From Verrucomicrobiota bacterium (GTDB lineage: Bacteria; Verrucomicrobiota; Verrucomicrobiia; Limisphaerales; UBA9464), in NCBI GenBank assembly GCA_017309115.1, contig JAFLEF010000030.1, positions 25,575 through 89,574 of the forward strand: a DNA stretch of 64,000 bases, in the 5' to 3' direction. Under the pieces are notes generated by a model. That model ran no database searches and was not told where the DNA came from. It saw only the letters and a list, made by a program, of their open reading frames with translations. Positions 14,523-19,499 of the stretch are shown here, one piece after another (position 1 is the stretch's first letter; every line of letters begins with the position of its first letter). The position numbers and the translations under genes are program-made.

Positions 14523-15167
14523 ATGGTCTCCCCAATTCCAGTCGTTCCGGCTCCTACCTCGCCGCCCGGCCGGAATTTGTCCGGGTCGAAGACGCGCCGC
14601 GCGCCGCGCGTTGGGGACCATCTCAGGTTCCAGATCGGAAAGAGCGTTCACCACCTCGAGGACCCAACCGGGGACTCGGCCTGCGTCTCGGTGCAGGCCT
14701 CGATTGGAACCGTGGCTGTACCGCTCTTCGTCGGGCCGGTCGCCGGTCGCGAGGCCGAAGTGGTCACGGTGTTCCGCCTCGGTGGCAGTGACGTGGTTGG
14801 ATACTCCCCGCGTTCAAGCGGCCGGAACCATTCAAATGGCCAACCCGGTGGCCACTCCCTGGGTTGGGTTCTATGACGCCCGCCCCGACGTGGTCCTCAC
14901 CTGTTCCTCGGCGGGCTCAGAGCTTCGCTACAGCGTGGTGGCCCTGGGAGCGGAACCGGGGACCTACTCGGTATTTTCGGCGCCCATCAGCCTGCCGCTC
15001 AATCGCTCAATCGCACCCTCTACGCGTATGCCATTGACGTCGTGGGTAGTGCCCAATCGTCCGAGGTGGTGCGGCACGACTACCGCCGGCTGCCGTACGC
15101 CGAGAGCGGCTACCAAAAGGCATTTTCGACTTTCAATATACGAACCGGCAGGCGTATATCGAGTTGA
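14523..15167 (+). pseudogene. Frameshifted remnant of a secreted-protein gene
   Basis: Coding-like sequence runs through three frames. From 14523 one frame reads VSVQASIGTVAVPLFVGPVA. Near 14,800 the sense passes to another frame with WVGFYDARPDVVLTCSSAG and GTYSVFSAPISLPL. At 14998-15013 the octamer CTCAATCG occurs twice in tandem. Removing one copy joins SLPLNRS to the third frame, giving NRTLYAYAIDVVGSAQSSEV and a stop at 15165. The joined segment resembles the chitobiase/Fn3-like C-terminal domains of secreted proteins, but the family is uncertain. No intact start or signal peptide is visible, so it is probably a decayed fragment. Confidence 0.6.
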
Positions 15168-15250
15168 GACTCAGTTCAGCATGAACACCTTACGAACAGG
15201 AGGATCGCCGGATCTGGCGAACGCGATATACGAACCGGGAGAGCGTCCCC

Positions 15251-15358
15251 CCAACGACAGGTGTCCTGATGGCGAACACCGAACACCTTGCAGCGGACCC
15301 AATGACACCCCTCCCAAATCTTGATATACGACTGGCAGTCGTAGATTAAACGTTGGGC
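15251..15358 (+). other. Possible degenerate attC-like site (left edge of cassette array)
   Basis: The 3' box GTTGGGC at 15352-15358 matches the integron R' consensus GTTRRRY exactly. A candidate 5' box CCCCAAC lies at 15251-15257, and the surroundings CCNCCCAACG pair 9 of 10. The inner arms do not pair convincingly, unlike the sites further right; a separate palindrome (TACGACT/AGTCGTA, 15327-15343) lies inside. It is 12 bases before the first cassette-like gene. Confidence 0.35.
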
Positions 15359-15369
15359 GGAATCGTGCC

Positions 15370-15765
15370 ATGCAACTCAATCCGTTCATTAAGTATTTCA
15401 GGTGGCGCGTAGAGGGTGACGACTACGTTGACAGGCCCGCCAGTTGGGGACGGTCGGCTATTTACATGGAGACATCTGAGGAGGGATTTGTTGGCCGACA
15501 GATTCAGCTATTCGAGTCGGGTGTGGTTCTGGCATACGATGACGAGCACTACCATGATGATTACGGCTGGCGGTATCCCAACCCGGTTTACACAGACCCG
15601 CCGCGGACAGTTCCCATCACGAGCAAGGAGTTTCACCGAGTTTGGATACGGCACACCGATGCAAAGAACAGAGAATACACAAAGACCGCACAACAAGCCG
15701 GCTGCACCGAACGCCGGGATCGAGTCTCGCTTGACAATCGAACGCCATTGGCCCGGCGCCGGTGA
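15370..15765 (+). CDS. DUF6881-like small protein (possible immunity protein)
   Basis: The frame encodes 131 aa. Residues 1-95 look like a genuine small domain: FIKYFRWRVEGDDYVDRPA at the start, EEGFVGRQIQLFESGVVLAY in the middle and ITSKEFHRVW near the end. This pattern (beta strand, E/Q-x-F/E-x-G, then I-x-K-x-E-F-x-x-W) resembles DUF6881 proteins, which I associate with toxin-immunity loci. The last 30-odd residues run into the following attC-like palindrome and are probably just read-through. It is the first gene of the cassette-like array, with base composition clearly less GC-rich than neighbouring chromosomal genes. The family assignment is by eye and modest in confidence. Confidence 0.6.
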   Translation: MQLNPFIKYFRWRVEGDDYVDRPASWGRSAIYMETSEEGFVGRQIQLFESGVVLAYDDEHYHDDYGWRYPNPVYTDPPRTVPITSKEFHRVWIRHTDAKNREYTKTAQQAGCTERRDRVSLDNRTPLARRR

Positions 15766-15780
15766 GCCGGAGCGTTAGCC
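15688..15780 (+). other. attC-like recombination site 1
   Basis: The 5' box is GCACAAC (15688-15694) and the 3' box GTTAGCC (15774-15780). Next to the boxes, the 5' arm GGCTgCACCGaaCGCCGG pairs with the 3' arm CCGGCGCCGGTGAGCC; lower-case bases are unpaired or mismatched. Unpaired single bases on one arm are the hallmark of integron attC sites, where they set the strand used by the integrase. The length of 93 bases is within the attC range. It overlaps the 3' end of the gene at 15370. Confidence 0.7.
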
Positions 15781-15789
15781 CCACAGACC

Positions 15790-16335
15790 ATGATCGACCG
15801 CCACGCACGTAAGCGGCTTGCCGAGCGGCTCAGACATCTTGCCACTGGCCAGATGACGAACGATTCCTTCGAGGACACGGCCGTCCGGACGAATGATATG
15901 GCGGTGCGCGAGATTGAGTGGCGGCTTGCTTGGCCTCACTACGACGACATGCACGAACACACGTTGACAGCGGAGTTCACACTGACAGATGGGATCAGGC
16001 GCGATTTTGCGAGGGCCATCCTGTTTTTGCAGACGGACCTCGAATACGAGTGGAAGCACCGGGTGGGGCTGCGTGGATTTCTGAACTCCTCGTTCCACCT
16101 TCGGCCGTTCAGACGCACGCCACCGATCAAAACGCAAGGTGGAGAGCTACGATACTGGCCATTTTTCCGACGTTCTGATTACAGTACCGCGAGGAAGGTT
16201 CCAGCCTATTTGTGTGGCAGGAGGGGCCAACAATTCGCTGCACACGAACCGCCGCCGCCCGACCCGAGTTCCGGCGCCGCGACTCCTCGGACGCTGGGTT
16301 CGCCGCCGGCGCCTGTTCCCGGCGGCGGTCGGTGA
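15790..16335 (+). CDS. Conserved hypothetical protein, cassette gene 2
   Basis: The start MIDRHARKRLAERLRHLATG follows the attC-like site by 9 bases. The protein is soluble, charged and mostly helical: TNDSFEDTA near residue 25, a Trp-rich stretch WRLAWPHYDDMHEHTL, then ARAILFLQTDLEYEW and YWPFFRRSDY. I recall similar orphan proteins (LxHLxxGQxTNDxFED ... FLxTDxEYEW) in Verrucomicrobiota and Planctomycetota, without a known role. About 35 residues at the C-terminus, Pro- and Gly-rich, are encoded by the attC-like palindrome that follows, so the working domain probably ends near residue 145. It lies alone between two attC-like sites on the plus strand. Confidence 0.65.
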   Translation: MIDRHARKRLAERLRHLATGQMTNDSFEDTAVRTNDMAVREIEWRLAWPHYDDMHEHTLTAEFTLTDGIRRDFARAILFLQTDLEYEWKHRVGLRGFLNSSFHLRPFRRTPPIKTQGGELRYWPFFRRSDYSTARKVPAYLCGRRGQQFAAHEPPPPDPSSGAATPRTLGSPPAPVPGGGR

Positions 16336-16351
16336 GCTCTTAACGTTGTCG
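16225..16351 (+). other. attC-like recombination site 2
   Basis: The 5' box is GGCCAAC (16225-16231) and the 3' box GTTGTCG (16345-16351). The 5' arm GCTgCACaCGAaCCGCCG pairs perfectly over 15 bp with the 3' arm CGGCGGTCGGTGAGC once three single bases (lower case) are left out. The 3' box is imperfect because the sequence beyond GTT belongs to a transposase fragment. The site overlaps the end of the gene at 15790. Confidence 0.7.
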
Positions 16352-16488
16352 AGGGCGGCGGTATGGGCCGGAATGTTCCCGTAAGAACGGGGTTCACCGG
16401 AGGAATCGGCGAGGGCCACAGCGATGGTTTCCGCGTGGACATCGAGTCCGACGTACTTAATGGTTTTCTTCGTGGGTGACGAGTTCAT
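16342..16488 (-). pseudogene. IS110-family transposase, N-terminal fragment
   Basis: On the minus strand the ATG at 16488 opens MNSSPTKKTIKYVGLDVHAE and continues TIAVALADSSGEPRSYGNIP. YVGLDVHAETIAVA is the first part of the DEDD (RuvC-like) catalytic domain of IS110/IS1111 transposases. After about 49 residues (AALDNV) homology stops exactly at the GTT of attC-like site 2; the remaining 270-odd residues, including the C-terminal Tnp domain, are missing. No IS ends can be defined. It is a dead remnant, pointing opposite to the surrounding genes. Confidence 0.8.
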
Positions 16489-16568
16489 AGGGCATTCTTT
16501 GTTGTTCGATCGGCGGAGTGATTCGTTGGTCCACAACCTTCTGGCTCTGGACCCCGCTTCGGCGGAGT

Positions 16569-16628
16569 TTAACCCACGCTGCACCGGCTCGTCACCCACA
16601 CTAGACCGCACACCGTCGAGCCATAGGG
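16569..16628 (+). other. Possible attC arm remnant plus small hairpin
   Basis: The stretch 16489-16633 holds no gene. TTTAACCCACGCTGCACCGG resembles the 5' arm of the neighbouring attC-like sites (box ...AAC then CGCTGCAC), but no matching 3' arm follows. A 7-bp inverted repeat CTAGACC/GGTCTAG surrounds 16610-16632 just before the next gene. The attC site upstream of the SUKH gene appears to have decayed or been cut by a deletion. Confidence 0.3.
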
Positions 16629-16633
16629 TCTAG

Positions 16634-17188
16634 GTGCATATGCGGTCGCTTGACACAGTCGTGGAGCTTTTTGGCCTCGTAACGCAAGACATGAAGTGGG
16701 GTGCAGCGCCTCCTACCAAGCGTAGCCTCAAGAGAATCCACGAGCTTTTGGGCGTTCGTATTCCTCAGGTATATGCGAAAGTTGCCAGCGCATGTCCGAA
16801 TTACGGAGCGTATTTGAACGGCATAGGAGAGGACTACGATCACGATGTCCACATGCTTCGGCTTACGCAGTGGTTTCGTGGTGCATCTGAGCCGCCCCTG
16901 CCGACCCACTATGTCTTGCTCAGTCATGGTCATGATGGGGACTGTGACTGCTGGGATACACGTGAGGTGGCAGCGTCTGGCGAGCATCCCATTGTGCATG
17001 TGAGCCTGGAAAGTGGATATGGCGATGAGCCGCCTCGGGTTCAAATCACAAACATCCGGTATGCGAGTTTTGCTCACTATTTGCGATGCATCACGGTCTA
17101 TTACGCGGAAGCTTCCCGAAGTTCGGCTAGTCAGGCTCGGGTGGAGAAGTTGATTGAGATTTTGAAGAGAGAAAATGAATGCAACTAA
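16634..17188 (+). CDS. SMI1/KNR4 (SUKH) family protein, likely immunity protein
   Basis: The 184-aa protein has the SUKH layout: an N-terminal helix (KRSLKRIHELLGVRIP), the characteristic PQVYAKVASACPNYGAYLNG, a loop YDHDVHMLRLTQWFR, then LPTHYVLLSHGHDGDCDCWD and PIVHVSLESG. SUKH proteins commonly neutralise polymorphic toxins, although many are orphans. No toxin gene is adjacent. It lies in the cassette-like array, on the same strand as the other small genes and less GC-rich than the flanking chromosome. The next frame overlaps its last 10 bases. Start choice between codons 1 and 3 (both ATG) is open. Confidence 0.75.
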   Translation: MHMRSLDTVVELFGLVTQDMKWGAAPPTKRSLKRIHELLGVRIPQVYAKVASACPNYGAYLNGIGEDYDHDVHMLRLTQWFRGASEPPLPTHYVLLSHGHDGDCDCWDTREVAASGEHPIVHVSLESGYGDEPPRVQITNIRYASFAHYLRCITVYYAEASRSSASQARVEKLIEILKRENECN

Positions 17189-17451
17189 CAAGGCTGCTGT
17201 ACTCAACGCAGAAGCTCTGCGACTCGAAGGACACACGGCGTCACATCGACACAATCCTTACGGCACTTGAAGGAAAGACTGAATCGGTCCAGAAGATTCA
17301 GCGCCGAAGCTGCGAGATCGACATCACTTCATTTTGGGTATCGACAGGACAAGGAAGTCCATGCTTGAAGCCAGAGCAGATGCTCAAGCTCGGGACGTTG
17401 GGGATCTCTGTTTGGTGGGATATTTGTTTCTCTGATGAAGACAAGACATAA
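17179..17451 (+). CDS. DUF4279-like protein, N-terminally truncated
   Basis: The 90-aa frame carries what I recognise as the C-terminal half of DUF4279: a helix (HIDTILTALEGKTESVQKIQ) followed by CEIDITSFWVSTGQGSPCLK and LKLGTLGISVWWDICF. Full proteins of this family are about 130 aa and have an extra N-terminal beta-alpha part, missing here. A TGA codon lies directly before the ATG. It is therefore either a short variant or a remnant fused behind the SUKH gene. Its stop codon TAA lies inside the 5' box of attC-like site 3, as is usual for gene cassettes. Confidence 0.55.
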   Translation: MQLTRLLYSTQKLCDSKDTRRHIDTILTALEGKTESVQKIQRRSCEIDITSFWVSTGQGSPCLKPEQMLKLGTLGISVWWDICFSDEDKT

Positions 17452-17564
17452 CAGACGCTGGAGACGAACCGCCGCCCCGCTTCTCCGCTCCACACCGTGC
17501 AGCATTTCACACACGCGCCAGCCGCGCCGCCACTGTCGGCGGTGGTCTCTCACCTCTGTCGGCG
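17446..17564 (+). other. attC-like recombination site 3 (degenerate 3' box)
   Basis: The 5' box is ACATAAC (17446-17452), containing the stop codon of the DUF4279-like gene. The 3' box is GTCGGCG (17558-17564), two changes from GTTRRRY. The 5' arm ACAGAcGCTGGAGACGAACC and the CCGCCG after it pair with CGGCGGTGGTCTCTCACCTC and the TGT after it, with several bulges. Confidence 0.55.
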
Positions 17565-17594
17565 ATTTCTCGCGCCTCCCGTAATCGAATCCTT

Positions 17595-18059
17595 ATGAGA
17601 CCGCTTTCAGAAATCACATTCAGTCCCGAGCAGGTCGATGCTCTCTCCCTCCGCGTTTTGTGGTCATGGCGTGTTCCCGAGAGTTACAGGCCGCTTCTTT
17701 TGTCCCTGTTTGGCGACTGGTTCTTTGCTGACTCGCACGACCGCGTCCACATGCTCGACTTGGTTTCCGGCCAACTCCGACCAATTGCCGACACCGAGGT
17801 TGAGTTCTTCGTCATGCTCGACGCCGAGGAGCAGCGGCACGAGTGGCTCATGTCCCACCTCGTAGAGGCTGCTGAGCGGGCGGGCATTCAGCGGTCTGCT
17901 TCTCAGTGCTTCGCCTTCCGAACGCCACCGAGCCTAGGTGGCCCGCTTTCACCCGCTAACCTTGTGCCGTGGGATCTCGCGGCTTACCAGACCGGCACCA
18001 GCAAGCTTCTCCAACAGGTCGCCGACCTTCCGATTGGCACGCAGGTCATCGCCACATGA
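17595..18059 (+). CDS. DUF1851/Tdi1-like protein, possible T6SS immunity protein
   Basis: The 154-aa protein matches the pattern I know from the DUF1851/Tdi1 C-terminal domain: SLFGDWFFADSHDRVHMLDL, then GQLRPIADTEVEFFVML, HEWLMSHLVEAAERAGI, SQCFAFRTPPSLGGPLSPAN and finally LLQQVADLPIGTQVI. The order GDWFF, VHxLD, EWLM, PPxLGG and QxxxLPxGT is characteristic. Tdi1 proteins protect against a type VI secretion effector in Agrobacterium; most relatives are uncharacterised. It stands alone between two attC-like sites and has no partner toxin in view. Confidence 0.7.
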   Translation: MRPLSEITFSPEQVDALSLRVLWSWRVPESYRPLLLSLFGDWFFADSHDRVHMLDLVSGQLRPIADTEVEFFVMLDAEEQRHEWLMSHLVEAAERAGIQRSASQCFAFRTPPSLGGPLSPANLVPWDLAAYQTGTSKLLQQVADLPIGTQVIAT

Positions 18060-18072
18060 ATCGACCGGAATC

Positions 18073-18170
18073 GCCGAACCAGACGGTGCAGCGAACGGGA
18101 GCCAACCGATTCGCCTGGGAACAAATCCGACGCCATCGCCGGCTGTCGTCGCTGGCCTTTCTCGTTAGCC
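18073..18170 (+). other. attC-like recombination site 4
   Basis: The 5' box is GCCGAAC (18073-18079) and the 3' box GTTAGCC (18164-18170), followed by CC exactly as at site 1. The 5' arm CAGCGAaCGggAGCC pairs with GGCTGTCGTCGCTG. It begins 13 bases after the stop codon of the DUF1851-like gene, typical spacing for a cassette. Confidence 0.65.
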
Positions 18171-18183
18171 CCAAACTACGCGC

Positions 18184-18489
18184 ATGGACATGCTTCTTTT
18201 GATTGCGATTTGCTTTCTGCTCGCCGGTGGAGTCGTTGGTTTTCTGTGGCGCTGGGGCTGTCGATGTCTGGCACTCGCAGCATTCGGCTTGGGCAATGTC
18301 TTATTCGTCGCGTTTCGAGGGTGGTCAGACCTCGATTTTGCGGCGGTGATTCGGAACAGCTCTGCGATCATGTCATGGCTCGTGATGCTGCCGCTTGAGG
18401 CAGTGTGGGTCGTCGTCCCCGTTGTTGTCGGAGCGCTGACTGGTTGGCACATCCGTAGGAGCTTTTGCACGCGTGCCACGAGGGGCTAA
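18184..18489 (+). CDS. Small membrane protein, cassette gene
   Basis: The 101-aa protein starts 13 bases after attC-like site 4. Three hydrophobic segments are visible: MDMLLLIAICFLLAGGVVGF, a central one with LALAAFGLGNVLFVAF, and LVMLPLEAVWVVVPVVVGAL. The end is basic (IRRSFCTRATRG). No family is recognised. Its stop codon overlaps the 5' box of attC-like site 5. Confidence 0.6.
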   Translation: MDMLLLIAICFLLAGGVVGFLWRWGCRCLALAAFGLGNVLFVAFRGWSDLDFAAVIRNSSAIMSWLVMLPLEAVWVVVPVVVGALTGWHIRRSFCTRATRG

Positions 18490-18612
18490 AACCAAATCGC
18501 TCCACACGAACCGCCGCTCGCCGTTTCGATTTCGACCGTGGTGGTTCATGCGAGGCTGGATTCGCTGCCAGCGCCCATCCCCAGCGGCGGCCGGTGAGCT
18601 CGAGCGTTGATA
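18486..18612 (+). other. attC-like recombination site 5
   Basis: The 5' box is CTAAAAC (18486-18492) and the 3' box GTTGATA (18606-18612). The 5' arm GCTcCACaCGAaCCGCCGC pairs with GCGGCGGCCGGTGAGC with one mismatch; the three unpaired bases are at the same positions as in site 2. The two sites have nearly identical arms but different loops. Confidence 0.7.
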
Positions 18613-18632
18613 TTGCGACTTTCGTACGTCTC

Positions 18633-18965
18633 ATGTCAGATCCATCGCCAAATCATCGGAGTCGATTCGTTTTCATGCCTTGGGCTCTATTCGTAGTTGG
18701 TTTGGTTTCAGTACCGTGCATCTTTATCGCTGCCAGCAAAGCGAGTCGGCCAGCGTGGGACTGGGACACATCTACCTTCGGTCACGTTTTCGCGTGGCCG
18801 TTACTGGCTCTATCACTGTGCTGCTGTTTGGCAGCGCCCTTGTTTGGCCACCAATCCCTCGGTGAGAGACTGGCGCTTTCCGCCTGCGCCCTGATTGCAT
18901 TCGGTGTGGTGCTTCTTGCGACTCTGGCTTTCTGTGCACTTAATTTTGGCATACCTATTAGCTGA
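18633..18965 (+). CDS. Small membrane protein, last cassette gene
   Basis: From the ATG at 18633 the protein is 110 aa (MSDPSPNHRSRFVFMPWALF). A longer upstream frame would read through the attC-like palindrome, so I reject that start. Three membrane helices: FMPWALFVVGLVSVPCIFIA, VFAWPLLALSLCCCLAAPLF and LSACALIAFGVVLLATLAFC. No family is recognised. It begins 21 bases after the 3' box of site 5. No clear attC-like site follows it, so the array seems to end here. Confidence 0.55.
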   Translation: MSDPSPNHRSRFVFMPWALFVVGLVSVPCIFIAASKASRPAWDWDTSTFGHVFAWPLLALSLCCCLAAPLFGHQSLGERLALSACALIAFGVVLLATLAFCALNFGIPIS

Positions 18966-19499
18966 TTATGAAACGAACCTAGACGAAGCAGTCTACTGCA
19001 GTGAACGCGCCGATTGCGCCAGGGTTCCAATTTGGACTTCTTTGGCGGCGCGTCACTAAGTAGCGACGCTCGGCCGCTGCTACCCTTCGTGGGGACTTCC
19101 ATGCGCACCCATAGACTTCGCAAAGTAGGCGCCGGAGCATGAAAGTCTGCCCGCATTCCATAGGCTCCCCCTCTCCCACTCCCACCTTCTCCCCCTGTCT
19201 TTCCTGCGTTCATGTTTTCCAGATTCCTCCCCCTCCGCGAGCTCCGCGCCCTCCGCGGGAGATTCTCGATTCTCGGATGTTTTTCGGCGCGTTGAGACGT
19301 TGAGACGGGGAGGTGTGGAGTGATTCGATGCGTCACTCGCCGGGACGAAAAGCGGTTGCGTCACTGCGTGGCGCGACGCAGTCCAAACGCTTCGCGCGCA
19401 GCCGACTCGGAGTGAAGTACTCGGGCGAACGGCAGGGTGACGCGTGGGGAGAGAGGAGAGAGATGGCGCCTTCTGCCGTCGGCGGCTACGGATCGGTCG
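18966..19499. other. Gene-free repeat-rich stretch
   Basis: I see no gene. The stretch holds pieces of the dispersed repeats: GGTAGC-type CGACGCT sequence near 19060, a CCTCCGCGGGAG-rich segment near 19230-19260, a short GTTGAGAC tandem near 19295, and CGCCGGGACGAAAAGCGGT near 19335, which recurs at 25195 and 25405. It separates the cassette-like array from the AraC regulator. Confidence 0.6.

Follow-up and report, generated by a model that had tools for sequence, protein, structure and literature searches.

A probable orphaned integron platform in a Verrucomicrobiota genome: six attC-terminated cassettes behind a predicted attI, with no integrase gene in the window

Introduction

Integrons have already been listed for Verrucomicrobiota, and clusters of attC sites lacking an integron integrase (CALINs) are a known class of element, according to the pertinent passages of PMC8618304. 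Here we describe a row of six gene cassettes, each ended by an attC site, in a window of 64,000 bp from the draft genome of a bacterium of this phylum (assembly GCA_017309115.1; contig JAFLEF010000030.1, here C36, positions 25575-89574). A first-pass annotation of the bare sequence had reported a cassette array at this place, and that observation is confirmed. The genome contains two types of putative attI site, which we call attI-1 and attI-2, and the array of the window begins at one of the second type.

The array resembles a CALIN in having at least two attC sites and no intI close by, and its six sites are close to the mean of almost 6 given in the relevant part of PMC9024848, but it is headed by an attI of a type with six copies in the genome. 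The CALINs located outside ilvD in Xanthomonas are likewise integrase-less arrays that exist in addition to a home platform; attI copies occur here, whereas the passages of PMC12444791 on those loci mention none. With the sedentary chromosomal integron of the Vibrio cholerae type the genome shares many similar attC sites, an integrase whose nearest PDB match is that of V. cholerae and the divergent order intI - attI - array, seen on contig C3, but it differs in that its attC sites lie on at least 25 contigs of a draft assembly, with 11 attI copies of two types and one intact intI. The layout of the delta-attI-type cassettes of class 1 and 2 integrons is also found on contig C46, where, within 39.8-40.5 kb (locus L055, 4280-5046), an open reading frame (ORF) of 157 aa is followed by an attI-2 copy (at 40.5 kb) with no attC match between them; the attI-2 of the window, however, heads an array and is long (about 235 bp).

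The first-pass annotation had considered such arrays poorly described in this kind of genome. This does not hold for integrons in Verrucomicrobiota or for CALINs as such, but we found no description of one intact integrase accompanied by eleven attI platforms that fall into two types, nor did we find several attI platforms of one integron type described for one genome in the open-licence PubMed Central papers on which our use of the literature rests. According to the part of PMC9024848 that treats them, attI sites of integrons other than class 1 have been described only poorly. The nine attI-2 copies (six in this genome and three in a congener) and five attI-1 copies, with mostly different cassettes behind them, are natural replicates by which the crossover and the conserved core are marked without an assay. 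The system also offers a direct test of the origin of integrase-less arrays, by loss of intI and copying of the platform versus off-target insertion, and a test of whether one integrase serves a foreign attI.

Results

The attC sites of the array

The genome (G000) is a 7.53-Mb draft in 111 contigs, 95.3% complete with 3.69% contamination, and the comparison set comprised 59 genomes, namely G000 and 58 relatives, of which four are congeners (G001-G004). Sites were scored with two covariance models. R1, whose E-values are rough, was built from 41 of 73 candidate sites out of 20 genome stretches, with the sites of the window itself excluded, along with a duplicate and those that were weaker or of odd length; R2 was built from 11 of 13 relatives of site 6 (the two divergent ones were dropped), with two from G004 and none from the window. 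The array has six attC sites, five that were reported in the first pass and one (site 6) that it had missed:

15686-15780, plus strand, attC site 1 (R1 E 1e-4; R2 E 1e-13)
16222-16351, plus strand, attC site 2 (R1 E 4e-32)
17442-17567, plus strand, attC site 3 (R1 E 1e-11; GTT of the 3' box lost)
18070-18170, plus strand, attC site 4 (R1 E 2e-7)
18484-18612, plus strand, attC site 5 (R1 E 6e-32)
18980-19080, plus strand, attC site 6 (R2 E 6e-23, the window being outside the training; R1 without filters E 0.005; 3' box GCT, not GTT)

Run on the window, R1, although trained on sites outside it, recovers all five of the sites first reported, on the plus strand and with ends no more than 4 bases from those first given, and its next best match in the 64 kb has an E-value of 0.17. 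With 18966-19140 as the query, all 14 other matches are in array orientation and 13 of the 14 cover site 6 itself. Copies of site 1 with 90-91% identity stand in arrays on C68 and C75, and site 3 has 76% identity to the attC that lies nearest attI in the C3 integron. Rfam at gathering scores returned nothing in the window, and the attC arm pattern at three mismatches, applied to the window alone, was uninformative (43 matches vs. 39 expected).

These sites have the architecture of attC, that is, an imperfect palindrome with extrahelical bases on one arm, a variable loop and RYYYAAC and GTTRRRY boxes, the boxes being degenerate in sites 3 and 6. The pairing of the arms around unpaired bases in the 5' arm, as first described, reappears in the structure of R1 itself, and pairing of the helix is kept in 96.8% of 533 cells, a value reached by none of 500 shuffles. 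Covariation is seen in five of 13 pairs, in which both partners have changed (a count reached by 8 of 500 shuffles). There is one gene per attC in a single orientation, except that one unit consists of two overlapping ORFs and an insertion sequence (IS) remnant. The short spacing to the next gene also held, the distance from the 3' box to the next ATG being 9 bases at site 1, 13 at site 4 and 20 at site 5.

The head of the array

Comparison of its copies leads us to assign the element at the head of the array as a predicted attI with its crossover at GTT, rather than a decayed attC:

15119-15354, plus strand, attI-2 (about 235 bp; core 15327-15354, TACGACTGGCAGTCGTAGATTAAAC-GTT; predicted crossover after G 15352)
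14652-15118, plus strand, 3' tail of a gene of unknown family ahead of attI-2 (frame 14611-15321, without a Pfam family)

The first-pass annotation had taken a weaker element ending at 15358 for a decayed attC; R1 without filters gives it an E-value of 0.27, and it corresponds to the 3' end of attI-2. If this weak first site is an attI, the array is a platform and not a bare cluster of attC sites. The stretch 15119-15352 recurs ahead of attC sites on C46 (three times), C80 and C95, which makes six copies in G000, and the core is found three times in the congener G004. All nine are exact to the pattern, all nine have an attC on the same strand within 1 kb, and a reversed-pattern control gave no match in the 59 genomes. 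Matches in G006 and G048, with three mismatches and no attC nearby, were taken as chance.

Among the 15 pairs formed by the six G000 copies, similarity is 78-97% (mean 88%) across the 40 bases leading up to GTT but falls to chance level, 17-38% (mean 29%), across bases 5-44 behind it. The palindrome CGACT-AGTCG of attI-2 reads CGACC-GGTCG in G004, with pairing kept. At the threshold used, a palindrome whose end lies 5 to 11 bases ahead of GTT is present in nine of 14 copies of both attI types, and six of 14 have a second palindrome near -200 (shuffles, 0.1-0.3 per copy). On C46 at 126 kb, attI-2 sits between an array and the start of a remnant of an integrase, IntI-2, about 245 bp from the start of that frame; on contig C134 of G004, near the contig end, a copy adjoins the start of an IntI that is 53% identical (49 aa, E 2e-11). 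The canonical divergent arrangement, with an integrase frame starting next to attI-2, is seen in two genomes.

The gene tail precedes attI-2, whole or in part, also on C46 near 43 kb, on C80 and on C95 (blastn, 75-85%). Its counterparts include L055 559-837 and 7333-7858 and L270 802-934. At 36 kb on C46 it precedes a stretch that resembles, by eye, a decayed attI-1; blastn at 1e-4 gave no match there.

Integrases and attI-1

The first-pass statement that the window has no integrase stands: there are 20 PF00589 and 20 TIGR02249 places in the genome, none of them on C36, 12 recombinase frames used as tblastn queries matched nothing in the window, and no intI gene adjoins the attI there, as it would in a complete integron. 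An IntI was found elsewhere in the genome, as had been thought worth seeking. Integron integrases were called by the TIGR02249 cut-off of 265 bits, and the only one above it in G000 is the intact IntI-1 on C3, with 417 bits. In the PDB it matches V. cholerae IntI best (2a3v, E 5e-86), with the catalytic residues and the integron-specific segment aligned, whose roles we presume to be the usual ones. Its nearest named relatives are in metagenome genomes labelled Verrucomicrobia (67, 65, and 64% identity), which makes a host in Verrucomicrobiota probable.

The order on C3 is canonical, with intI on the plus strand and attI and array on the minus strand. The attI of this intact integrase, attI-1, differs from attI-2 and has five copies, on C3, C81, C108 (where it adjoins an intI-1 remnant), C10 and C86; the copies on C10 and C86 match the pattern with three mismatches. 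In the 10 pairs of these copies the sequences are 75-100% alike before GTT and 17-33% behind it. An attC on the same strand follows four of the five within the stretch fetched, the exception being C10. No attI-1 was found in the other genomes of the 59. IntI-2 is present in this assembly as an N-terminal remnant only, the 153-aa frame at 126 kb of C46 (45 bits to TIGR02249, profile positions 2-78, and 44 bits to PF13495). A further IntI-like gene fragment lies near the contig start at C29:416-655 (L243; 71.8 bits to TIGR02249).

Arrays in the genome and its relatives

At an E-value of 0.01, R1 gives at least 100 attC matches on at least 25 contigs of G000 (two on C16 overlap), and with stricter filters 58. 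Grouped by a 4-kb rule, the matches listed form 18 clusters with at least two members and 10 singletons, and all 72 of the 72 neighbouring attC pairs are on one strand. Copies of the arm noted in the first pass thus recur genome-wide, but within same-strand arrays. Altogether, eleven attI copies (six attI-2 and five attI-1) stand against one intact integrase gene in the draft.

In other arrays of this genome cassettes move as units with breakpoints at G-TT. One cassette is found both behind attI-2 on C46 and behind an attC in the C3 integron, which has attI-1 (96% over 300 bp). Three further shared cassettes, from a comparison of 51 of the 73 sites, break at G-TT, two of them cleanly; the third is less clean, and there the two sites upstream are attC of a single type with 77% similarity. 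One shared cassette is present in the C108 array (attI-1) and a C46 array (attI-2).

Of the 59 genomes, 19 have an IntI above the cut-off and 32 have R1 attC matches; attC-positive are 15 of the 19 IntI-positive genomes vs. 17 of the 40 others (p 0.012), figures that are rough because R1 is tuned to G000 and strict filters were used. None of the four congeners has an IntI above the cut-off, and attC matches number 18 in G004, four in G003 and none in G001 and G002. An empty site was sought in G001, where htpG and the gene preceding it are syntenic (79 and 76%); the araC-side gene had no match and no empty site was found.

Discussion

We believe that the window array is probably an orphaned integron platform, consisting of attI-2, six attC-terminated cassettes and no integrase gene. 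The starting points are direct observations, namely the sites, their conservation, the crossover points, the sharing of cassettes in other arrays and the IntI remnants, and the earlier reading as a cassette array without its own integrase is supported by the attC model matches, the arms in same-strand arrays and the IntI elsewhere. The cassettes would have entered singly at attI-2 by attC x attI recombination through the cognate IntI-2, and the platform would then have parted from intI-2. The separation most likely occurred as a block of gene tail, attI-2 and cassettes that was copied to several loci, an origin suggested because four of the six attI-2 copies follow, whole or in part, the same gene tail. 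IntI-1 of C3, acting in trans, could today excise the cassettes through attC, and new insertion at attI-2 by this non-cognate integrase is expected to be poor.

Several points weigh against an orphaned platform. Intact IntI-2 may be absent through incompleteness of the 111-contig draft, and simple loss of intI does not explain the gene tail shared by those four attI-2 copies. Two attI-2 copies lie between attC sites in C46 36.7-46.0 kb, one of them after the 157-aa ORF, neither attI type has a match at many of the attC clusters, and none of the window's own cassettes was found at a second place. Whole-site folding energies are no better than those of shuffles for any of the five sites (z -1.65 to 0.01); because they are ordinary, the evidence for attC is the conserved helix and not stability. 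Finally, sites 3 and 6 are without GTT and an IS remnant abuts site 2, and the array is therefore partly decayed.

It is possible, though we consider it unlikely, that one intact integrase serves many platforms of attI and cassette row in trans, with cassettes traded among eleven docking sites of two types. If so, the presence of the same cassettes behind both attI types would be the trace of such exchange. We prefer the orphaned platform because recombination between non-cognate attI and IntI is generally inefficient, as stated in the pertinent part of PMC8946536.

An ordinary CALIN, in which IntI-1 would have inserted single cassettes behind htpG at a secondary (attG) site, without participation of an attI, is improbable. 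This route is among those proposed for CALINs in passages of PMC8618304, intact IntI-1 is present, and at other places in the genome several attC singletons or clusters are without an attI match; the start of the window array, however, coincides exactly with the crossover of a conserved leader found beside intI starts in two genomes, and given that leader such an origin is largely excluded for this array. We think it likewise improbable that the leader is instead an unusual cassette or repeat end, such as a delta-attI-type cassette or a miniature inverted-repeat transposable element, that stands ahead of arrays by chance. Its six copies, and the placement of two of them between attC sites on C46, would fit, and delta-attI-type cassettes are described for class 1 and 2 integrons in passages of PMC12901181, but the leader adjoins IntI N-termini at the expected place in two genomes, and attI-1, beside an intact integrase, has a similar core with the palindrome before GTT. 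The last alternative, palindromes of the repetitive extragenic kind that mimic attC genome-wide and are unrelated to integrons, would suit their number and unexceptional folding but is for practical purposes refuted by the sharing of cassettes and the orientation of arrays on a single strand, as well as by the G-TT breakpoints, the covariation, the IntI in the genome and the higher frequency of attC in IntI-positive genomes.

Cassette genes and mobile elements

The cassettes and the IS remnant of the window are as follows:

15370-15765, plus strand, cassette gene 1 (no family; one Pfam match far under cut-off)
15790-16335, plus strand, cassette gene 2 (no family; runs into its own attC, site 2)
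16352-16633, minus strand, IS110-like remnant (adjoins the 3' box of attC site 2; no Pfam family)
16634-17188, plus strand, cassette gene 3a, SUKH-like (PF09346, 16.2 bits, under the cut-off of 25.4)
17179-17451, plus strand, cassette gene 3b, DUF4279 (PF14106, 33.3 bits, cut-off 25)
17595-18059, plus strand, cassette gene 4, Tdi1-type immunity protein (PF08906, 38.5 bits, cut-off 27.4)
18184-18489, plus strand, cassette gene 5 (unknown family; weak PADLOC 2TM-effector match, E 0.003)
18633-18965, plus strand, cassette gene 6 (no family found)

The match to cassette gene 5 is the only one given by PADLOC. The Tdi1-type gene, the sole cassette gene searched in this way (query 17595-18056), had no match at E 1e-5 in the 58 relatives; distant homologs with 28-33% identity are on five plasmids. 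The IS110 label, given in the first pass and found without a Pfam family in its support, is kept here as an assumption. Part of the remnant (16507-16633) has 99% identity to the contig ends of C92 and C75, and 16235-16634 has 80% identity to C54, on which an IS110-like remnant lies next to an attC in a similar layout (L057, 5393-5767). The abutment of the remnant on site 2 is reminiscent of the IS1111-attC group.

Shorter IntI-like recombinases near arrays on C44, on C46 at 115 kb and in relatives were considered as a second kind of integron integrase and rejected; we take them to belong to IS91-type elements near attC sites. On C46 and on contig C278 of G004 the shorter recombinase is followed by IS91-type transposases (PF14319, PF04986; NF033538, 307 bits for G004), and in G032, G034, G046, G016, and G052 an IS91-type transposase behind the recombinase was assigned from ORF appearance alone. 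The recombinase on C44 is cut short, with no transposase seen behind it. In this bacterial order, IS91-type elements with an accessory tyrosine recombinase are found a few kb from attC matches or an integron integrase at these loci:

C46:115.0-117.2 kb (L241), IS91-type element
C44:74.2-75.1 kb (L242), cut-short recombinase only
G004:C278 (L245), IS91-type element
G032:C41 (L246), IS91-type element
G052:C115 (L247), IS91-type element
G016:C53 (L248), IS91-type element beside intI

The target tetramer of IS91-type elements, which we take to be GTTC/GAAC, would match the attC core.

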